Shown: positions 6,194 through 58,821 of the stretch, in pieces
How positions within the stretch are numbered: the stretch's first letter is position 1
How the letters are laid out: every line of letters starts with the position of its first letter
From: Thuidium tamariscinum
Lineage: Eukaryota; Streptophyta; Bryopsida; Hypnales; Thuidiaceae
DNA: 64,000 nt
Reading direction: 5' to 3'
NCBI GenBank assembly: GCA_947034885.2
Contig: OX344752.2
Coordinates: forward strand, 8,990,001-9,054,000
Position numbers and translations under genes: made by a program
The notes under the pieces: generated by a model
What the model was told of the DNA's origin: nothing
Databases searched by the model: none
What the model saw: the letters and a program-made list of their open reading frames with translations, nothing else

Positions 6194-7567
6194 TTATTCA
6201 TTCAAGCGCATTGCTTCTAAAAGGTACAAGTGCCTTGCAATTGCCATTTGCAATTGTTCACCATCATTCTGTGGTGGACTTTGCACTAACTGTTGTGCAT
6301 ATCCAAAATCATGGTGTCCCCATAAAACAATTGACTCATCTATCATATCTTTTCTATCAATGATGATATTATGGAGTAAACAACATGCTACTATCAAACT
6401 TGGAATCTTTTTGAGATTAGGATTTGTAATAGGATTTCTAAGAATCCTCCACATTCCTTTCAAGATCCCAAAAGCACGTTCTATTACCATACGTGTAGAT
6501 GAATGCTTGAAGTTGTATTCCTCATACAACACTGGAAGTTGAATTCCCGGCCAAGGCACCAATAAGTTTTTGTCTCCAACATAACCTGCATCACCTATGA
6601 TGAGCTCACAAATATCAACGCCTTGAATTTCGATCGTAGATCCATTCAATCGTCTTCCTGCAATCACTTCTTTGAAGTGATTTGACATCAACAAAATTCG
6701 AGAATCATGTACAGATCCAGGAACCCCAACAAAAACATCTATAAATCGAGCCTCGTGGTCTACAATTGCTTGCATTACTGTTGAGTAGTTATGATCACGA
6801 TCATACCAATCACTTGATCTAGTATTTGCTGGTAAATCAAATCGGATGTGGGAGCAATCAAGAGCTCCACAACATTGAGGAATGCCATGTAGGTTTTCAA
6901 AACCAAGCTTAACCTCTGATAATCTTTCTCCTGTTGGCCAACTTAAATGCAAAGGTAAAGCTACCTTTATCAAAGCAGCAATGAATCGTTGACAGACTAC
7001 AACACTAGTTGAATCAGCTATGCCAAAAAGTTCACCAACTGAAACATGAGTGTCTCCAGTGCCTAGTCTTCGTAAAGCAATAGCAACTTGTTTAGGAACA
7101 TCCATCAATCTTCCAGTGATATTGATCAAACCTGGTGGTGGATTACTCTGCAATTCTTCATGAACCAGGCTACAAAGATAATGAAAAGTCGGCACTGATA
7201 AACGAAAAAATTGTCGAAATCGCTCTGGATCTTCATGCATCACCGAAGTTGAAAATTGATCCCACCAATGAATTGAACGTGGCTTGATGTAGTATAGACC
7301 ACATTCTGATCCAAAGATTTGTTTTTTCCCATGTTTTTCAACAAAAACTTGTTGAAATAGTGCATTGCATTCTAGAACCGAATGCAGAAGTAAAAATTCC
7401 TCTCCTACCAATTTTTTCTGCTTCAAATGCCTCATGCGTGATACAGTTGGGGCATTTCTTTTACTCCTTTCAAACATCCCTTGGCTAGCTAGTTGTACCA
7501 TTGTCCCCACTGATGCATTTGCAACCCCTACTACTGCAAGTGCGGCTCCAACTTCTGATTCATCCAT
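6194..7567 (-). CDS. PIF/Harbinger transposase (DDE superfamily), apparently intact
   Basis: A 457-aa uninterrupted protein of the HARBI1-like DDE nuclease family, which cuts and pastes Harbinger elements into 3-bp TWA targets. The catalytic triad is visible: D237 in GALDCSHIRFD, D326 in IIGDAGYVGD and E363 in RMVIERAFGILKG. The DNA-binding helical region precedes it (VPKQVAIALRRLGTGD, then VGELFGIADSTSVV, about residues 157-190), and the CCLLHNIII motif near residue 395 is typical of the family. Length is normal. The start at 7567 is the first Met of the frame. The partner Myb-like gene lies upstream on the same strand, the usual Harbinger arrangement. I could not find terminal inverted repeats, so autonomy is inferred from the two intact genes. 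A domesticated HARBI1-like gene is the alternative. Confidence 0.92.
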   Translation of the reverse strand: MDESEVGAALAVVGVANASVGTMVQLASQGMFERSKRNAPTVSRMRHLKQKKLVGEEFLLLHSVLECNALFQQVFVEKHGKKQIFGSECGLYYIKPRSIHWWDQFSTSVMHEDPERFRQFFRLSVPTFHYLCSLVHEELQSNPPPGLINITGRLMDVPKQVAIALRRLGTGDTHVSVGELFGIADSTSVVVCQRFIAALIKVALPLHLSWPTGERLSEVKLGFENLHGIPQCCGALDCSHIRFDLPANTRSSDWYDRDHNYSTVMQAIVDHEARFIDVFVGVPGSVHDSRILLMSNHFKEVIAGRRLNGSTIEIQGVDICELIIGDAGYVGDKNLLVPWPGIQLPVLYEEYNFKHSSTRMVIERAFGILKGMWRILRNPITNPNLKKIPSLIVACCLLHNIIIDRKDMIDESIVLWGHHDFGYAQQLVQSPPQNDGEQLQMAIARHLYLLEAMRLNE

Positions 7568-7959
7568 ATTTCACAAGCTTCACATAAACAAATACAAAAG
7601 TAAATTAGTCCTATATTCAAATTATGCATTTGTGTATAAGAAAAAAATTCACAATAAAATAGCATATGTGATGAAACAAATCTTGAACTGCATATGAAAG
7701 TGAATTCCAGCCTCCAATAGAAAAATAAATATAAATATAAATAATGAATGGTTGATGAAAAATACGAAGAAGTACACACATTGAGTTCAAATAACACTTA
7801 AAAAAATGAAATGCATTAAAATCAAACATGAAATAAGCTAGTATATTAAAATATGTAGAAGATTAAACAAATAGGTACTAAATACATTTACAAAGTTTGT
7901 GAAAAAGATGTAATTGAAGATTGTAGATTGCGAAGTTACTAATGAGGTGGTGATTTAAT

Positions 7960-8957
7960 CTACTGCCTATTAGAAAGTGCATTGCCAATTGTTTTCATGG
8001 CATCACTTAAGCTCAATAAGGCATCCACATAAGCTTTGCCAGTATTACTAGCACTCTCCATTCGCTCACGTTCAAGCCTCATTAAATCAGAGTGGCGAGT
8101 TTCTTCTGATTGCAGTTTCTGCTTGTCCAATTCTATAATTTCTTTATGACGCACATCCTCACGACTGTGCCCTGAACTTATGGCTTCTACAAACTCAAGT
8201 CTAGTTTTGTCCATTGATGCCAGTGCACCATCTGCAGCCTTCATAGATAAACGCCGTTTTTTTGTAGAAAGATTCATGGATGACTCGCCATTTTCTGCAT
8301 CAAAGAAGAAGAATTTTTTAAAAACTCAAAAATAATGCATGCAAAATTGATCAAAACATAATTATAAAATATGTTGAATGTCATCTCTATAAACTTACCA
8401 GTAGATGGAGACATTGTACTAGTATCAAGTGGAAGGTTCCCTGGATCCACAGCATTGGAGATACTTGGATACCATTCCAATAAGGCACGGTATACAACCT
8501 CATCCAAGGGAGTTCGTGGAAACCTCCTCACATGATTCTTCTTCTCCGTGGGACTCATTGCAAAATAACTTGGCTGACCAGATGGAATTTTTTTCTCATA
8601 GTCATAAACTTTTTTGAAGTCTGGGGACAACTGCTCCCATTTGTCTTGGATTTGTTGTTCATTGCGATGAACACCTTTCTCCCATAAATCATTAGCCATG
8701 GCCTTCCATCTTTTTGGTGCAGTGGTCATTTGAAGTCGTTGAGTTTGAGTTGGCCCATACTTTGCAAAGTCCAATCTCTTTGTGTGACACAAGCATAGGG
8801 TGTGTGCTAAAGACCATCTCCCAACTACATACACTCTACCATCCACTCCTCCTTGAGGCTCTCCTAGAGCCACATTAATGTCATCTTGTACCTCATCCTC
8901 GAGATGTATAGACTCAGGGTTCCAATTGAGGTCAATAGGAGTTCTTTGAGACTCCAT
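7960..8957 (-). CDS. Harbinger Myb/SANT-like partner protein, two exons
   Basis: Exon 1 is 8957-8399 and exon 2 is 8294-7960. The donor (GTAAGT at 8398) and acceptor (GATGCAG) join in phase 1 to give 297 aa. The N-terminal half carries a Myb/SANT-like (trihelix-type) DNA-binding domain: SLAHTLCLCH, then QRLQMTTAPKRWKAMANDLW, then QIQDKWEQLSPDFKKVYDYE. Next come the SGQPSYFAMSPTEKK segment and a basic NLS-like STKKRRLS. The C-terminal half, about residues 205-280, is charged and predicted coiled coil (EIIELDKQKLQSEE, RLERERMES). In Harbinger systems the ORF1 Myb-like protein recruits the transposase to the nucleus and to the element ends; I infer that role from family and neighbourhood. The frame has no stops across the predicted mRNA. 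Confidence 0.88.
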
Positions 8958-9057
8958 TTTCTACAGAAAAAATGATAAATGTATGTCGATTATGAGAAAC
9001 AATGAATGTTTTATCAAATTACTAAATTATAATAATTTATTTAGGAAAGTTCATTAA

Positions 9058-13215: not shown

Positions 13216-13665
13216 ATGGCGAGCTTTACAATCACAGAGTCAGCGGCTTCTGCGAGAGCTTTACTATCCGCTTCAAGAGAAGCTACTACATGCCATACAG
13301 CAAACTGATTAATAAAGTAAGGTGAGTACTTCATCGTCCATTTCCTAAATTCCCAAATTTTGACTTATTAGTCAGGTTTCCCTGTACAATGGGTAGCACA
13401 TCAAGTCTTACACGATCATTCATTGATTTTCAGCAGAGGAGAGCTCGCCACAGAGTGGCTCAAAATCACAGCGGTGCCGCTTCTTGTGTTTCTGAAGGGA
13501 GCTTGCGCGAGGAGCTGCGTTCAGAAATCCTCGGCATGGAGGATGCTAACCGACGACGGAGGAAGCGCACGTACTAAGGCAGCAGATTCGACATCTCGGC
13601 CCATTGACAAGAATCATGTTGCAGTAGGTGCGCATCATGGAGCTGGAACTCAAGAGCCTGTTTGA
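13216..13665 (+). pseudogene. Small single-pass membrane protein gene, copy 1, exon 1 broken
   Basis: Exon 1 starts at ATG 13216 (MASFTITESAASARALLSAS). A short insertion before the expected donor brings in TGA at 13306-13308. Exon 2 begins at about 13434 after a TTTTCAG acceptor and reads GELATEWLKITAVPLLVFLK then GACARSCVQKSSAW, the same hydrophobic segment as copies 2 and 3. Translation from the ATG ends after 30 codons, so this copy is probably non-functional. The family was not recognised. Confidence 0.7.
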
Positions 13666-19520: not shown

Positions 19521-22166
19521 GTGGTGGCAACACTCCCTCCAACACATCCGGATTCTGACCAGGTGAGAATTTCTGCATGCACCCATGACAACCTGCAATT
19601 CCGTAGGTCAAGTGAGGTAGAAGTTGTACCGGTTCGTAAAGAAATTGACCATGACAATTCAGAGGACAGTCATGATGGAATAGAGCTTTGGAGTGAGGCA
19701 CATGTCATTGGGGAGAGAGTTGATGCGTCCACAAAACACAAATACTTGCGTCTCCAATTCATCTCTAGAGAGGTGGCGGAAGTGTGCGCTGGTTCAGTGC
19801 ACCAACTACAGCTCCGTCGATGTCATCAGCGTCAAGTGCCGCACGATGAAATGGATCCCACTACGGTAGGACCTTCCCGATCCACAACAACTCATGTCCG
19901 ATTATTCGAGGACGAGGTCATGCCTGTCGATGGACATTCGTCTTCAGGAGATGCTTTCTTCAATGCTCTACATGCAGATGCATCCGCTTCAAATTCTTCT
20001 ACGTCTTGTCCTATGGAGAGGCGAGAAGAAACCACATTGATGACCGCTCCTGAGGACACGCTTTTGCGCCACATTCCAATGTCGACAGACTCCTAGCTGA
20101 CCATGTCGGAGTCGAAATACCAAGCGGCCGGAAAGCCAAAGTCACATCTGCCAAGTGGAGCTAGTTCCCAACAACAATGCACTACTACTGCTGTTCAAAC
20201 ACATCGGGGTCTGCATCCCATTGGAGAGGCTCCGACATCTTCTTCTCATGATGGGCCTGCTACCCGACGACGAAGGCGAGCCATCAGGGAGGAAAAACGA
20301 CCGTTACTTCAAAATGTCGACTTGTTGCCTGCAAATGCGAGGGAAGAGGAGGCAGCACAATTGTGGCCTTTAAGGCATGCTGACGTACCTGGCAGCGGTA
20401 ATGCGGCTTTAGATGGTGATAATGGTAATAGTGTAGACTTCAGTTCTGACTCCTAGTACCATGAGCCCAAGAAGGAGGGAAAGCGCAAGCGGAATTCAAA
20501 AAAACCCGCAGGCGTCGAAAACCGTTAGGATGCCACTGACAAGCGCAAGGTAGCTGCAGTAGTACAGGAGTTGTTGCTCCGTCGATTCGCCTCGGAAACC
20601 TGGTTGCCAGATGAGCCATGTTACAGAGCACCACTTGTGGCTTTCACTGGCGGCACAGTAGGGTGTACATATCCTTATAGCCGCCTGCCCTCAGTGATTG
20701 GCATCTTTGAGCGATTTTGGTCTTTCAAAATGCAGGAGCGCATTGTTCGTGAAACAAATCTATATGCATTTGAAGTAATTAGTAAGGACGGACAGACTAG
20801 AGGTGGCATAAAGTGGTCTCCCTTGACTTTATGAGAGTTTCGAGCGTACTTGGCAATTTCCATATATATGGGTATAAAATGAGTGCCAAACCGTCGACTG
20901 TATTGGGCGAAGGAGGACGGGCTGTTCCATTGCACTGTCATTTTGTAGATACTGAAGCGGGAGAGATATGAGCGCATCACATGATGTCTTCACGTCGCTA
21001 CTGCACCTGCACATGTCCAAGATCGTGAGAGTCCTACGTACAATAAATTGCACAAGGTCCGCTGGCTTGTAGACAAGACATGCACCAAATTCAAAGAAAT
21101 GTGGAATTCAAATCAGCAAGTGACGGTTGATGAAAGTATGGTTATGTATAAGGGGAAATACTCCCCGATACGGCAATACATGCCGAACAAACCTGTGAGA
21201 TTTGGCTTACAGGTGTGGTGTGCCGCTGATGCGTTGTCCAAGTACGTATGGAACTTCCAGATATATTGTGGGCGGCTTGGCAATCCCCATGACGAAGATG
21301 GAAGTGAAAACGATGAATTAGACAGTGCACTCACCTTTCCAGAGTGCGCAGGCAAAGGTGAAGGACTGCAAGGTCGACATGTTGTCAAGGAGCTCCTCCT
21401 GGATCTTCAACACCGAGGGCACATATTGACCACAGACAACTTCTTTACTTCTGTGCCACTTTTCTTAGACTTGTTGGACGGAGGTATTATGGCGACGGGC
21501 ACATTGCGTGCCAATCAGAAGTACGTGCCAAAGCATCTCTTCGCTAAAGATGTGACTAAAAAAGAAAGTTACGGATGGTCGAACTACCACATGCACCAGG
21601 AACGGAAGATATGCTGCTCAGTATGGAAGGATCGTATTGCTGTAGTGCTACTGTCCACCCACGCCGAGGCTGTTCCTCAAGTAGATACTAAACCTTTTGT
21701 GTGGCAAAAAATCAATGGCAAACGGAAGAAAGTCAAGACCACACCCATGCACTTGCAATACACTAAAAAAAGGCGTGGCGTGGATACGGCTGATCAGTTG
21801 AGAGGAATGTATTCATGTCTGTCACGTAGTCACAAGTGGTGGCATTGATTGTTCTCATACCTACTTGACACTAGTATGACAAATGCTTGGATTCTGCATT
21901 CAGATTTGAGTTTCCGTTTTTTCGAAGAACCTATGACGCATTTGAATTTCCAAATGCAGTTGGCGAGGGAGCTGGTGGCTAAGTGGAAGGGCCGCACGCA
22001 TGGCTTCTCAGTGTTGTCACCGCACCATCCTGCACCGCACGGTGTGAAGAGTATGGGTACCAAGCGAGGAAATTGTCGTGTCTGTCGAAGAAGAACGAAT
22101 CAAGCCTGTCCAGGCTGCGGTGGCCACATCTACCGGAATCCATGTTACTGGGACACACATTGGTAG
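19521..22166 (+). pseudogene. piggyBac transposase (DDE_Tnp_1_7 type), eight in-frame stops
   Basis: A single frame runs for about 880 codons, interrupted by TAG at 20094, 20454, 20526 and 20946 and TGA at 20832, 20880, 20982 and 21846; I see no frameshift in the core. Expected features are in order: acidic N-terminal part, basic NLS-like PKKEGKRKRNSKKP (about 20470), conserved start of the core (PYSRLPSVIGIFERFW, about 20675), catalytic Asp codons at 21129 (VDESMVMYKG) and 21435 (TTDNFFTS), and VDTADQLRGMYSC at about 21780. The C-terminal cysteine-rich zinc-binding region (CRVCRRR, CPGCGG, PCYWDTHW) spans 22070-22166. Family members are about 550-700 aa, so the true start is probably inside this frame. 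All eight stops could be C-to-T changes of CAG or CGA. Confidence 0.9.
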
Positions 22167-33750: not shown

Positions 33751-34087
33751 CTTTACATTTCAAAACATGTAAATTGTAAAAAGTTATTTTGGTAACTTTT
33801 TTTGCTGAAAGTTCATCTCTACAAAGTTGCTACAAACCATTCTTATAATCTCCCTAATAACTCTTTCCTTTCATGTAGTAGTCCTTCAAACATTTAAAGC
33901 AAAAAGATACTTGGAATCCCAAACAACCCATCTTTTTTTTGTAGTGGAGATTCCTTCTTGGATGGCATCCAATAATCTTTTGAAGAATTTAATGGTATGA
34001 GTCTACAATGACTCAACTTGTTAGTATAAAAATATATTTGGTGTCATTAAAAAAATTAGCATCACTGCAAACTACTTGTTCTCTTAG

Positions 34088-34471
34088 CCCTTAAATCTCG
34101 GATGGGTAATCGTGGAGAAAAAAGGATAGTGAACAGATGCATTGATCCAGCTGACCGAAGGAAGGGACACCATTCTTTAGATGTGAACAGTGCCAACAAA
34201 GTCCGCACCACATGCTACCCTCCTTGAAATTGAAACAAGGATAGTAGGGATTTGTCCACCGTAGTTTTCAATCTCCATGCCATTTGGGTACAATCTACAG
34301 CACCTAAAAAAGGAAATGCATTCAAAGACCGTGTTTCCAACCTTCCATGACAAAGCACGTCTCTGTTATCACGTTAGAAAAAAAAATTGGATGGAAAAGC
34401 CTTTTCTACATCCACCAGTCTATTTTTTGGTCATTCATCAGACGTCAGATGTTCGCGTCAATCTTTAAGGG
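34088..34471. mobile_element. Possible TTAA MITE, 384 bp
   Basis: The right end, reversed, is CCCTTAAAGATTGACG next to TTAA (34472-34475). The left end is CCCTTAAATCTCGG after TTAG (34084-34087). Only the outer eight bases agree well. It lies just downstream of the SUMO-protease gene. Confidence 0.45.
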
Positions 34472-34607
34472 TTAAAGAATTTACCATAATACAATCAAAT
34501 ACACAAATAAGCTAAATCAATGCACAATACATTGTACTAACAACATGTCTTCTAAACCAAGATTCAAATACAACATAAAAAACCTCAATTGGCAAACACA
34601 AGGACTT

Positions 34608-35738
34608 TCAATCCTCACCAAATGAAATATCCTTAGAGTCTTCTATATCACTAATACCATCTACATATAATCCTTCACTATCAATAAGATTCAACTCATG
34701 TCTTCGAATAAAAGGATCCATTGTAAATGAAGGATTGTTATTAACAATTAAATTATTCAATAGAAGTAAGTGATCCAAATTTGGAAGTCGCTTCAACTTG
34801 GTATAACAACAATGTAAGGTATCCAAACTCACCAAGTCTTCCACTCCAGGGATCTCTTCAATGCTAGTCCAACTCACATCCAAATAAGCCAATAGCTTCA
34901 AGTGACCCAAAGGTGGAAGTGATTCCAGCGATGTGCATCCCTCAAGGTCTAACAACGTCAATAAATGCAATTCCTCTACACCACGAATCTCAATGATGCC
35001 ACTGCCCTCCAAGTCCAAGTAAGTTAGTGCCTTCAAGTACCCCAAGTTTGGTACCGTTTTCAAACTATCGCACCCCCAAACATTCAATTTCACCAATGTT
35101 TGCAATGCACTCAAGCCGTGGATGGTGGAGAGGACACTACACTCTGAAAATGACAAGACTTCCAAGAGCCTCAATGCCTTCAAATCCATGCTTTCCACCA
35201 AGTAGTGGTTGCATAAAAATTCCAATCTCCGCAATTGAACACATTGACTAAAGTTTGCAAATTGCCAAAGGGAGTAAGAATCTCCACAATTCTCAAAGAA
35301 AAATTCCTTCAAAGAGGAAGGAAATTGTATGTCAAGAAGATTGCAATAGAAAGGGCAGTTCATTATTTTAACCCATCCAAGCCCTTTGGCACCTTCCCAT
35401 CTATTCACCACCTTGAGTTTTGTACAGTCCATGATGTCAAGGCATCACAAATTAGGAAAATTTCCCAAATCAACATTCTCAAGTTCTTGACATTGATACA
35501 AACTCAAAACTTTTATTTGTTGCATTGGACATAGCTTGGTGACAATCACATCACGTAATAGACTGCAAAAAGTGTTCAAGTGGGGATTCTTGCTTAACAC
35601 TTTCCTTCCAAGTTTCTTGTAAACATCTAGATTTGAGATGTCACACCAATTGTGGTCCACCCAACAATCTCTCTGGTACCTCTTTCTCCAATGCATTTCC
35701 CGCAATGCCACCAACTTGCAATCTCGGAGTTGATAAAT
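34608..35738 (-). CDS. Leucine-rich-repeat exon with one in-frame stop
   Basis: A 376-codon frame opens after a GATTAG acceptor. Residues 1-97 (IYQLRDCKLVALREMHWRKR onward) precede TGA at 35447-35445; the same frame continues CLDIMDCTKLKVV and about nine LRRs of the plant NLR type (LKALTYLDLEGSGIIEIRGV, LVSLDTLHCCYTKLKRLPNL). The stop falls in NFPNL-stop-CLDIMDC, where an LRR would carry a residue, so it interrupts a repeat and is not a natural terminus. No TIR, NB-ARC or kinase domain is adjacent. It is either the C-terminal part of the fusion gene upstream or a separate degraded NLR fragment; in-phase splice sites favour the former. Confidence 0.8.
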
Positions 35739-38700
35739 CTAATCAGCACAACAATTTCCCATGCAAGCTAAGAATGGTAGTACATATCAGAAATGCGCAT
35801 ACCGTGTGGTGTAGCAAAAACACACTTAATGATCTAATTTTTGTTAAAATGAAGAAAATAATCCATATTGTAACCAACTATAACCTTAAGGTGTGCACCA
35901 ACAAAACTAGTTCCAATGATAATTGCAAGAACAATAATAAAAATCAAAACAAAATTCAAAAGCTAAGTAGATCAAGAACAAAAACTTACCTGCTCGCGGA
36001 TCTCCAACGGATTCTGATCTTGCACAATTGCTAACCTTCGACACAAAACTTCCAAACTCATTTCTAGGTCGTCACTATAATGTTCTTCCAACTCCATTTC
36101 AAATGACCAAACTTGAATTAAATTGAGGAAAACGTATTTCAATTCTTTCTCCAATTTATTGAATTCTTCTACAACCTGCACAACATGCCAACATTATGAA
36201 ATTGTAGTTCCATTTGTTACTCTCACAAAATCATCTTCCTAAATCAAACACAAAAGATGAATCCAAACTTACAACTTGTCTTAAAGGTGGTTTCTTGAGC
36301 TCCAATCTCTCCAAAACTAGTGGATATTGTTGCAGTGGGTTGATCGGACTTGATGCAAGCTTGTCCACATCCATATCACCCTCTACATTGGATTTCTGAC
36401 GCTTGCGGGATTGATCTTTTAAAAAAGAACGACGATTATAGATTGTATGTAATTGATTGTACCATACTTCATGCTCCTCCCCTAATGGCGTTGCCAACTT
36501 CAAGGACCGCTTTTCATTTTTTGTCACTTCACAAAATTCCTTCCCCATCATCACGCAATAAGCATTCAAATCCTTGTAAGCCTTCAATAAAGTATCAAAG
36601 CGATTTTGACATTGTTCTTTGGACCTCAAAGGCCAACCATGTTCAATGTTCTTGGCATTAATTTTTTCAACAATGAGATCCCAATGCATAGCACCCAACT
36701 TGCCCTTATTAAAATGGCCACCTTCAACTATGCATTGCAACAAAATCAAGGTCTCTATTTCTTTCCATTTTTTGCTCTTGATTTCTTTGACAACTTTAGA
36801 TGAACCTTGATGTTCATGCCTCTCCAAAGGCACTACTACAACTTCTTCTTGAAGCATGGGTTGAATGCTTAATAGATTCTCATCATCAACTTGTAACCTT
36901 TCACAAAGATGGGAGATGAGGCGTCGGATATAATTACGTTTGTCCGAAACCTCCACTTCAAAATTGGGTCGGGTAAAGTATGCACCTCCCCCCAATGAAG
37001 AGACAATCAAGTCTTGTGATGTTGACTTTGAGAGAAAGACTTCAATGTAATGCAAGATGTACAAACCGCAATCATAACCATTGCCTTGTTGTAGAACCTA
37101 ACACAAATGATGAACCCATCAATGAGAAATCCATTATAAGAGCTCTTGTAAGACTCTTATCAAACAAGGAAAATCATGCCTCCACCGAACAAGACCTCAA
37201 GTTCTATCACAAATAAACTAGGCAAAAGAATCCATACCTTAGCTTGAACATACTTCATTTGAACCAATGAATGTAATATACCAAGCAAGTTATTTGAAGC
37301 TTCAAATCTTTCCATCCATGCTTGTAATATAAAACTGCATACATAGTATAATATCCATGTTTATTGTGAGGAGAAACAATCATCTACTTCCCCATTAAAG
37401 ACATAAATATTCAATATCCATTTAGAAGTTTACAATGGCAACCATACCTTCAAGCTACAATGTGCATGACAACTTAACAAATCACTACAAGTGCATGGTT
37501 CACAAATTATTGAATAAAAACCATAAGAAAATGACCTTGTAATCACTTCAAGCCTACTCATTCTTTACAATTAGACAAAACTATAAAATAATAAGATTCA
37601 TAGGAATCATAAAACATGCATAAAACAACCATTTGTATGGTTCTCAATTCATGGTCCTATTCAAAAATTCACCTCTTCACTTGGCCTTCAAAGGACTCAT
37701 GTTTCCCTTCCATGGGGTCCAAATGAAGGATACAAGGTGAACCCTTCCTTTCACCTATCAAGAAACATCCAATTGGATAAGATAATGAAACAATTCACAA
37801 AAATGAATTTGCATGAAAAGCTTATTCAAAAGAGCAACTTACAAGGTGAGCTTGGATTTAGGCTCCCAAGATGACAAATGACAAGAAGGCTCCAATGCAA
37901 ACTGCAAACCAAAAAAAGTCCCATTGAAAAATGCAAGAGCCACAATGACTTCTCCCATTGCACAATATAAACAAGTTGGACATTCTCACTACTATCCTCT
38001 TTAAGTGCAAGGTTATACATCTTCGTAATTTCTAACAACTCTTGCAAGAACTTGTCAAAGAACAAGGACTAAACATCATCCTCAAATCAATACCTCTCGC
38101 AAGTTGCAAACCAACACAAAAAGTCATGACCATCACCTCACAATGACGGGAATGAAAACAAAGTCCTTCTCAAACAGGTTCACATCCCCAATCCACTTTC
38201 GTAACTGCACGAAATCAACCCGGCATTCATCAACGCCCATGGATGCAGTTGTCTCTAAAAGTTTTCGAAAGAAAAAGCTGTTGAAGAAGTGAAACTGGCT
38301 TTGGAGCTCTCCAGGAAGTGCATTCACTTTCAAGTACCTGCAGTGATAGCAGCTAATAGGTAATGGTTTCGAGCCACAAAAAACGTGTATTCTCTTCGAT
38401 CTATGAACTTGTTGAAATCAAACCAAGTAGCCTAAGAGTACATCAGCATTGCCATAGTCAATTATCTACGAAACCAAAATACGAGTCGAAAGCGGAATTA
38501 CTTACTTCATATAAAAGTCGATTATGTTGTCCGTGAGAAACTTCCCGGGTTGGAGACTCGCAAGATCTCTTGCTGTGATGGTCACAGCATCAGCTTCACG
38601 TTCTGGGTACGTAAGCACATCATCTGCCCCAGAAGTCGCAGCAAGTTCAATAAACCGCATTCTAAGAGTAATTGAAGATCCTTTCTTGCATCTAAATGGG

Positions 38701-39224
38701 TGATAGAAGCAATATTGATGTTGCTAAGACTACAAGTTGCAAAAATGCGTCAGGAAAAATCACCTTCACCAACCCGAGCTCTCGCCGTCACGTCTAACGC
38801 GATTCCAGAATGGGAAGAACGATTCTGGATCGGGTGCTGTGCATAGTTGCGGGGTCCAACAGAGCCACCAACTTCAAAATCTCGGTTGCTCCACGCTTCA
38901 GACCCAACTGGCCTGTCAGGGAAAGAAGCATCGCCCCAAAAGGAACACGACTTAGCTCCAAGCACATCATCCATCAACAGTTTCTTGCTGTACTATGTTG
39001 TAATTGTGCCACAATTCTCTCATATTTCAGTACCTGAAGGAGACAGCAGGGTCTTGCAAGGATGGCGAAAACAGAGGATGTTGGCCATGGAGGCCATTCG
39101 AGAAAGAAGGTTCACTTGGCTCAAGGGCAGAACCAGGAGCTGGCACATAGAACTCCTCCCTCGGCTGAATTCCCAAACTCGAGTCCAGGAGCTCTGAGCC
39201 GGAGGTGCCTGGATCTCCCATCAT
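34608..39224 (-). CDS. ULP2/SENP-like SUMO protease fused to Myb/SANT-like domain and LRRs
   Basis: Exons deduced on the minus strand: 39224-39034, 38987 to about 38764, 38723-38506, 38337-38137, 37901-37843, 37754-37673, 37334-37238, 37097-36273, 36175-35990 and 35738-34608. From 38723 on, every junction has GT-AG borders and compatible phase. The C48 (Ulp1) domain opens with DDVLTYPERE, then LQPGKFLTDNIIDFYMK, RFHFFNS-like QFHFFNSFFFRKLL and FEKDFVFIPV. Catalytic His is in LHWSLLVICH (about 37896), Asp in CILHLDPM (about 37718) and Gln and Cys in LQQGNGYDCG (Cys codon 37070-37068). Such enzymes cut SUMO from nuclear proteins. The Cys exon continues through NYIRRLISHL into a Myb/SANT-like domain (KKWKEIETLILLQC, WPLRSKEQCQNRFDTLLKAY), then exon 9 (coiled) and LRRs. 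The first two exons, the true start and the 38764/38723 junction are uncertain. TGA at 35447-35445 interrupts the LRR exon. Confidence 0.82.
35445..35447 (-). other. Premature TGA in the LRR exon
   Basis: This is the only stop in 376 codons of the frame. CGA (Arg) to TGA by one C-to-T change would restore NLRCLDIMDC, a normal LRR sequence. If it is real, the product ends after the first LRR segment. Confidence 0.75.
36273..37097 (-). CDS. Exon joining the protease Cys motif to the Myb/SANT-like domain
   Basis: One uninterrupted 275-codon exon contains both the catalytic QQGNGYDCG motif with its downstream helix (SDKRNYIRRLISHL, as in ULP2 proteins) and, about 60 codons later, the SANT-like domain. 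The fusion therefore does not depend on splice prediction. After the SANT domain come an EVWYNQLHTIYNRRS segment and a basic stretch, DQSRKRQKS, a likely NLS. Acceptor TGTTAG (37098) and donor GTAAGT (36272) bound it. Myb/SANT-like domains of this kind are common in plant trihelix-like proteins and in Harbinger or related transposon partner proteins. Confidence 0.88.
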
Positions 39225-41360: not shown

Positions 41361-41427
41361 AAATGTCTTTTTTTCACCAGATAAAAGTAATCTCTATATT
41401 CACCAGAAATTATCTAGTTCTTTTTAA

Positions 41428-41649
41428 CCCTTGAACGACGCTGCAGACGTTTGGCGTCCACTAAATGACAAAGAATCTTTCCTTGTAGGATAGAAATGCA
41501 ACTTTTCATCCTCGCTATTGGGGGTGGAAAGGGAAGAGCTTCTACAACACTTTGACTTCCAATGCATATATTTGGCTTTTTCAAAGTAGGTGATGTCACA
41601 CGATATCAAAATGCATGATTTCCGCCGCCACCAGTCCGTCCTTCAAGGG
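41428..41649. mobile_element. TTAA-A MITE, copy 2, 222 bp
   Basis: It is flanked by TTAA at 41424-41427 and 41650-41653. The left end is CCCTTGAACGACG and the reversed right end CCCTTGAAGGACGG. The interior is the inverse of 2031-2251 (GGATAGAAATGCAACTTTTC, GGGGTGGAAAGGGAAGAGCT). Confidence 0.85.
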
Positions 41650-41879
41650 TTAAAATGTTGATGAAGTCACCAAAATTTAATGAAAAAGTGTATGAATATG
41701 GTGGAAAAGTGTTTTTAAGTCCAAAAGACGGATGAATGTAGAAATACAATGCTTCACCAAATTTGAAGTGATCGCCATCTTGGCACTTTCTGAAAAAGTA
41801 AAAAAAGGGCTGCTGGTCATCGACGCGGAAGCAACGAAATACTTCGACAATGATCGTCACCGTCGGACGGAGAAGCCCA

Positions 41880-43494: not shown

Positions 43495-43856
43495 ATGGCG
43501 GGGTCAGTGCCATTGGAGCGGGCTTTACTAGCTTCCAGCCCCAAGGCTTCGGGGGAAGCTGCCACCACGTGAGTACTCTCACTACCGTAGTTTGCAAACG
43601 AACTGTTCAGTCAACTGATATTTCAAATTGGGTGTTAGTGAACCTGAATCTGGGTGACGATCTGTCAATGGTCTGCAGCGGAGAGCACGTTATAGAGTGG
43701 CTGAAAATCACAGCGGTGCCGCTCTTTGTGTTCCTGATTGGAGCTTGCGTGTGGAGCTGCTTCAAAAAATCCTCGGCTTGGAGGAAGGTAACCGGAGGTG
43801 GGGGAGGCGAACGTAATGAGGCGGCAGATTCGTCTCGGTCCCTTGAAATTCTGTAG
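43495..43856 (+). CDS. Small single-pass membrane protein, copy 2, intact (83 aa)
   Basis: Exon 1 is 43495-43568 and exon 2 is 43679-43856, joined in phase 2 through GTGAGT and CTGCAG. The protein is 83 aa: an Ala/Ser-rich N-terminal part (MAGSVPLERALLASSPKASG), one hydrophobic segment (IEWLKITAVPLFVFLIGACV, about residues 30-49), a Cys pair around its end (ACVWSC), then a basic KKSSAWRK and a Gly-rich, acidic tail. The N-terminal part is rich in Ala/Ser with few acidic residues, so an organelle-targeting role is possible, but nothing proves it. The family was not recognised. This is the only one of three copies with both exons fully conserved. Same gene structure, strand and upstream context as at 13216 and 58446. 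Confidence 0.7.
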
Positions 43857-58445: not shown

Positions 58446-58821
58446 ATGGCGGGCTTTACAATCCCAGATGCAGCGACTTCCGCGAGAGCTTTACTATCGG
58501 CCAGCCCTCCTGCTTCAATAGAAGCGGCTACTGCCACGTGAGTCCTTCATCATTCAATTTCAATGTTCTTTAGACTTATCAATCAGGTTTCCCTGTAAAT
58601 TACGCAGCATTTGAAGACTGTCCATGATGACTGATCGGTTGTTTGTCAGTAAAGGAGAGCTCGTCACGGAGTGGCTCAAAATCACACTGGTGCCTCTTCT
58701 CGTATTTCTGATGGGAGCTTGCTTGTGGCGGTGCACTCGGGTGGGTCACTCTTTGTATATTTTATACCCCCCGTGCGGCAAGGGGGTATTTTATGGGGGG
58801 CTATTTATCCCAAAGGCTTAA
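58446..58821 (+). CDS. Small single-pass membrane protein, copy 3, divergent C-terminus
   Basis: Exon 1 is 58446-58537 (MAGFTIPDAATSARALLSAS onward) and exon 2 is 58650-58821, in phase 2 through GTGAGT and TTGTCAG. The hydrophobic core TEWLKITLVPLLVFLMGACL is conserved. After LWRC the sequence leaves the family: codons for the KKSSAWRK tail are replaced by sequence holding a C/G hairpin at 58764-58789, giving RVGHSLYILYPPCGKGVFYG. The product would be about 87 aa. It may be an active variant or a copy truncated by an insertion. Confidence 0.6.

Follow-up and report, generated by a model that had tools for sequence, protein, structure and literature searches.

How does a SUMO protease find its substrates? 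SUMO proteases are few and plant SUMO targets are many, which leaves open how these enzymes achieve their specificity. A gene in Thuidium tamariscinum (Bryopsida) puts this question in an unusual form. It lies in a stretch of 64,000 nucleotides (GenBank assembly GCA_947034885.2, contig OX344752.2, positions 8,990,001 to 9,054,000 of the forward strand; hereafter the window) and appears to join a ULP2/SENP-like SUMO protease domain (C48), a Myb/SANT-like domain and leucine-rich repeats (LRR) in one gene. A preliminary description of the window had proposed this fusion from the nucleotide letters alone. Here we ask whether the fusion is real, whether it is confined to this locus, and what a protein of this kind could do. 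Comparison of the predicted genes across the genome supports the three-domain fusion as the old, shared design of a small gene family. A ULP2-type protease that carries both a domain of DNA-binding type and a variable module for recognition would represent a direct and testable answer to the question of SUMO protease specificity.

Gene Model and Domains

The gene is modeled with ten exons on the minus strand, running from 39224 to 34608 (Table 1); every junction is GT..AG and in phase. The start codon and exon 1, which is followed by an intron of 46 nt, are the least certain part of the model. A 288-codon open frame stands out: over 300 first-order Markov simulations of this strand of the region, the longest frame averaged 86 codons and never exceeded 224.

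Pfam was run on the exon translations one at a time, and all three proposed parts found their families: Peptidase_C48, Myb_DNA-bind_4 and several LRR families. The Peptidase_C48 match in exon 4 (20.8 bits) barely clears its cut-off of 20.7 bits, and a further match (2e-4) falls at the start of exon 8, the exon with the catalytic Cys; the frame of exon 3 alone matches no relevant Pfam family. Compared with the PDB, the spliced catalytic domain aligns with SENP7 at 1.5e-25, chiefly over its front half up to the catalytic His, with the Cys half forming a weak second stretch of the alignment, and it matches yeast Ulp2 (1.1e-13) over nearly its full length. Scores on the ULP1 side are weaker (SENP1 1e-11, yeast Ulp1 1.2e-8), and the catalytic domain therefore is, by score and not by tree, of the ULP2/SENP6-7 class. 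The His, the Asp, a Gln stretch and the Cys are all found in order. Taken together, these matches and residues bear out the catalytic domain as it was first described.

The preliminary description also had the Cys exon reading without a stop into a Myb/SANT-like domain, and this too holds. No stop codon lies between the Cys region and the SANT-like domain in exon 8, where Myb_DNA-bind_4 is matched at 9e-9 (36.1 bits against a curated cut-off of 27). Five other SANT exons of the family score between 25.8 and 39.6 bits, the lowest of these (C4:17.30 Mb) falling below the cut-off. The SANT segment has no sequence match in the PDB up to E = 1. LRR families are matched in 34608-35444, the best being LRR_R13L1-DRL21 (8.5e-9), which makes the LRR, by profile only, one of the plant resistance-protein type. 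Neither the frame of the exon-9 linker nor the 97 codons ahead of the stop in exon 10 (35445-35738) matches a relevant Pfam family.

This stop modifies the last part of the original proposal. The LRR exon was said to join in phase, and at the splice itself (35990 to 35738) it does, in phase 0; however, the frame then meets a TGA 97 codons into exon 10, overlooked earlier, with the LRR frame 34608-35444 lying beyond it. The genome search agrees, listing the LRR match of the window copy (C4:9024611-9025738) with one TGA. This in-frame TGA probably cuts the window copy within the LRR. It would give a protein of 775 residues (by the model) that ends within the LRR, or a faulty transcript. As a way around the TGA we considered a 48-nt in-frame GT..AG stretch found by eye (35448-35401); its removal would cost one repeat, its splice signals look poor, and we gave it no weight.

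The Tandem Paralog and the Family

The genome (363 Mb in 19 contigs, with the window at C4:8990001-9054000) was searched with three parts of the protein. About 43 kb from the window gene, on the same strand, lies a tandem paralog (L014) with ten matching exons, no gaps in 3,165 coding nt, and GT..AG retained in nine of nine introns. The paralog encodes an open protein of 1,054 amino acids with an uninterrupted LRR exon, and full function would sit with this copy. A splice-aware aligner recovered the same exons at the paralog locus from the paralog protein; since that protein came from the window model, the recovery is a consistency check and not independent proof. The tandem pair, one member with an open LRR and the other with the LRR cut, offers a natural comparison.

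Four diverged loci on C4 (4.60, 10.73, 10.755 and 10.78 Mb) repeat the order C48, SANT, LRR along a single strand; relative to the window gene or its paralog, their SANT domains are 47-50% identical and their LRRs 37-45%. Since the genome also has these four loci and the uninterrupted paralog, the fusion extends beyond the window locus. Counting all nine loci with C48 and SANT, the LRR is found in order at six, and His, Asp and Cys are retained in eight. A phase-0 GT marks the predicted end of the SANT exon in 11 of 11 copies inspected (C4:17.30 was left out of 12), the LRR frame is preceded by a phase-0 AG in seven of nine LRR copies, the other two not being resolved, and the linker edges are in phase 0 at the acceptor in five and at the donor in four of the six copies tried. 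That these junctions are shared at about 40% identity argues for one ancestral SANT-linker-LRR gene. The exon junction just ahead of the catalytic His is common to the family and to two C48 genes (at C7:22.75 and C2:0.38 Mb) that lack a neighboring SANT match, which points to descent of the family from an ordinary SPF-type gene. The ancestral protein would then have comprised a SUMO protease of the SPF/ULP2 type, a Myb/SANT domain of the trihelix type, the linker and the LRR.

Three neighboring loci at C2:45.12-45.15 Mb (L058, L042 and L044; Pfam was run on the first only) have SANT and LRR, with no C48 among the matches listed; judged by this trio, the family combines its domains in more ways than one. 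The family was drawn from the top of 178 LRR matches, and further SANT matches at C2:38.1-38.2 Mb, at C4:17.26 Mb and on C3 were left out of the family analysis. In the linker region the splice-aligned models of the diverged copies are only approximate, and we ignored four short exons, taken to be spurious, that the aligner placed past the LRR at one locus (L015) and far exons at another (L056).

Selection on the Domains

Between the window gene and its paralog, the ratio of nonsynonymous to synonymous substitution rates (dN/dS) is 0.39 over exons 1-8 (bootstrap interval of dN-dS from -0.080 to -0.019). It falls to 0.11 in the 125-codon SANT domain (0.20 when all of the SANT part of exon 8 is counted) and reaches 1.00 in the LRR exon, where the stretch before the stop has 2.97 on just three synonymous changes. 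In the clade of the 4.60- and 10.7-Mb loci and in the C2 trio, SANT pairs range from 0.23 to 0.60 and LRR pairs from 0.56 to 1.07; over all three clades the ranges are 0.11-0.60 for SANT and 0.56-1.07 for LRR. When four separate pairs are pooled, the hydrophobic scaffold columns of the LRR have a dN/dS of 0.34 (Fisher p 2.7e-4). Our reading is that the LRR fold may be maintained with a surface that is freely changing.

Possible Function and Alternative Explanations

The domains and the selection pattern suggest to us, at about even odds, that these genes encode SPF-type deSUMOylases built for holding at chromatin and equipped with a fast-changing LRR recognition arm, the window gene being one copy of a multigene family. 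The SANT domain would anchor the protease to certain sites on DNA or chromatin, the LRR would bind a protein partner (a substrate, an adaptor or a foreign protein), and the C48 domain would strip SUMO from nearby factors. All of this would require one transcript, with the three domains acting in one protein. The preliminary description had proposed a DNA-tethered deSUMOylase with the LRR as sensor or scaffold. The tethered enzyme with an LRR arm fits what we find in the family; it fits less well at the window copy, which is probably truncated, and for the sensor role the observation in hand is rapid change of the LRR.

Several observations weigh against a chromatin-held deSUMOylase with a recognition arm. 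In the comparison of the window gene with its paralog, the C48 domain has a dN/dS of 0.50 with a dN-dS interval just touching zero, and the Cys segment of that domain has 1.15 on two synonymous and seven other changes. The ratios for SANT and LRR overlap slightly (0.60 and 0.56), and pairs within a clade share sequences and are not independent. The LRR positions outside the scaffold have a ratio of 0.94 in the four pooled pairs (p 0.68 against 1), a value that weak constraint would explain as well as adaptation would and that does not show positive selection on the LRR; the low ratio of the scaffold is partly built in because its columns were picked on the same alignment. At three loci with C48 and SANT (C4:6.62, C5:12.34 and C4:17.30 Mb), no LRR was detected in the roughly 2.3-2.6 kb covered downstream of SANT, and at the last of these Ser replaces the catalytic Cys, the one such case among the nine loci. 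The LRR match at 10.73 Mb is listed with three TGA codons, yet its frame is open over query residues 1-308.

A different question is whether the window copy itself still works. We consider it probable that this copy is a decaying pseudogene, or is becoming a shorter C48-SANT protein, following the tandem duplication, with its sister alone functional; this is compatible with the explanation given for the family. In addition to the in-frame TGA, the LRR branch of the window copy is longer than that of the paralog (0.215 and 0.096), and 20 of the 74 amino acid differences between the two LRRs are assigned to the window copy and 10 to the paralog, with 44 unassigned. The longer branch and the larger number of assigned changes agree with a loosening of constraint once the stop had arisen. 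However, the window copy has no frameshift, the TGA could be a base error of the assembly, and the dN-dS interval for exons 1-8 lies below zero, with the limit that a pairwise ratio is silent on which of the two copies is constrained.

Another explanation, which we regard as unlikely but not far-fetched, is that the family consists of immune sensors without NB-ARC, in which C48-SANT would serve as bait or as output module and the rapidly evolving LRR would recognize foreign proteins. In three clades the LRR evolves more quickly than SANT, neighboring copies form clusters, and the family LRR resembles the LRRs of open frames that do bear NB-ARC (e.g., a 1,459-codon frame at C10:13.75 Mb). An immune use is conceivable because Peptidase_C48 and Myb_DNA-bind_3 are among the domains recorded in PMC4759884 as integrated into nucleotide-binding leucine-rich-repeat receptors (NLRs) of angiosperms. 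However, none of the 126 NB-ARC matches listed for the genome (125 of 170 first-look candidates were scored) is at a family locus, the nearest being about 30 kb from the C5:12.34 gene, and positive selection, as noted above, is not shown. Given that no NB-ARC match falls at these loci, the predicted family proteins are not NLRs. Were they nevertheless to act in immunity, they might show how chromatin regulation can lead to pathogen sensing with no nucleotide-binding switch.

We find it very improbable that the locus holds two genes, one for C48-SANT and a downstream one for the LRR. The three loci at which no LRR was detected in the stretch covered would agree with two genes; however, distant copies have SANT, linker and LRR with phase-0 junctions at like places, as far as these are resolved, they share the linker, and the C2 loci keep SANT and LRR together even where C48 is not matched. 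That the C48 gene travels in a transposon, or was put together from transposon-derived domains, is hardly credible: ULP-like genes within plant transposons are mentioned in PMC6117582, and the window holds Harbinger- and piggyBac-type open reading frames (ORFs) and a neighboring ORF with a Myb/SANT domain of its own, but the multi-exon C48 domain has an exon junction common to the two C48 genes that lack a neighboring SANT match, the sole long inverted pair spanning the gene (61 nt, 31413/44075) is a dispersed repeat with further copies, a high-sensitivity repeat search in 30-46 kb found no terminal inverted repeats with the gene, the neighboring Myb/SANT domain, tried as a direct source of the SANT-like domain, has 17% identity (E 2.8), the piggyBac-like inserts flanking the gene are absent at the paralog, and a scan of 20 of 20 window ORFs of at least 120 codons gave no transposase match between 33 and 43 kb.

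Comparison with Known Systems

Among the nearest described systems, SPF1 and SPF2, as presented in PMC6117582, resemble the family gene in having a ULP2-class C48 domain in the central part of a longer protein; their C-terminal part has modification motifs, whereas the family gene has Myb/SANT and LRR. A group of SPF-like ULP2 proteases is reported in PMC11371177 to be confined to bryophytes, lycophytes and ferns. This group is of the ULP2 type, as is the window gene by its scores, the two being likened by description and not by tree; the main text of PMC11371177 contains no word starting with Myb or leucine. The NLRs with integrated Peptidase_C48 or Myb_DNA-bind_3 listed in PMC4759884 join a plant-type LRR to a C48 or a SANT-like domain, as is the case here. 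In contrast to those NLRs, the family loci are without an NB-ARC match and have C48 and SANT together in one gene.

The logic of a tethered deSUMOylase is also found in XopD, a bacterial effector described in PMC8415633 as having a DNA-binding domain, EAR motifs and a C48 SUMO protease, that is, a DNA-binding part and a SUMO protease in one polypeptide. XopD differs in being bacterial, in its reversed domain order, and in that no LRR is mentioned in that account; we draw an analogy and claim no homology beyond C48. It is tempting, though speculative and in our judgment doubtful, to see the family as a lineage-own class of receptor-like chromatin enzymes without NB-ARC, in which a rapidly diversifying LRR would sense a possibly foreign partner and steer a SUMO protease anchored on DNA so as to switch transcription locally, as an endogenous counterpart of, or a decoy for, XopD-like effectors. 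The preliminary description knew of no plant protein with the C48-SANT-LRR architecture, and our searches of the open-access PMC literature likewise turned up no description of one, which does not establish its absence in print.

Table 1. Exons of the window gene and the premature stop codon (positions in the window)
Feature	Position	Strand	Content	Basis or remark
Exon 1	39034..39224	-	N-terminal extension, proposed ATG 39224	boundaries also fit tandem paralog
Exon 2	38770..38987	-		second possible donor, to 38764; 97% identity to paralog exon
Exon 3	38506..38680	-	C48 catalytic domain begins	SENP7/Ulp2 alignment
Exon 4	38137..38337	-	C48	Pfam Peptidase_C48 3.7e-4 (exon frame alone)
Exon 5	37843..37901	-	C48	catalytic His 37897-37895
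Exon 6	37673..37754	-	C48	catalytic Asp 37719-37717
Exon 7	37238..37334	-	C48	gene model
Exon 8	36273..37097	-	Gln and catalytic Cys, then Myb_DNA-bind_4	Cys 37070-37068; Myb_DNA-bind_4 36773-36558
Exon 9	35990..36175	-	linker	similar linker seen in diverged copies
Exon 10	34608..35738	-	leucine-rich repeats	interrupted in window copy
In-frame TGA	35445..35447	-	LRR exon of window copy	sense codon at that place in paralog

Other Observations

The C48-SANT locus at which Ser replaces the catalytic Cys (L060, C4:17299001-17304500) possibly encodes a pseudo-protease; a long open frame of unknown type continues past its SANT domain.

The transposase matches among the window ORFs of at least 120 codons are located at 6.2-7.6 and 21.0-21.8 kb. 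The first is a Harbinger-type transposase (DDE_Tnp_4, 1.1e-30), accompanied by the neighboring ORF with Myb_DNA-bind_4 (6.8e-11); the two occupy 6194-7570 and 8274-8960 on the minus strand. The second is a fragment of a piggyBac-type transposase (DDE_Tnp_1_7, 2.9e-44) at 20985-21848 on the plus strand. The two short piggyBac-like inserts on either side of the gene (34084-34475 and 41424-41653) have ends of the TTAACCCTT type, one end of the first being TTAG. At the paralog the corresponding TTAA sites are empty, and both inserts therefore probably arrived after the duplication. The transposase fragment at 20985-21848 is a possible source of mobility for them.

A small hydrophobic, coding-like segment beginning EWLKITAVPLFVFLIGAC is repeated in the window at 43668-43853, 13435-13593 and 58645-58740, on the plus strand. 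The nine matches listed for it genome-wide, eight of them on one strand, all fall within C4:8.98-9.18 Mb, and they would thus make up a local array of genes for a small, unknown protein.

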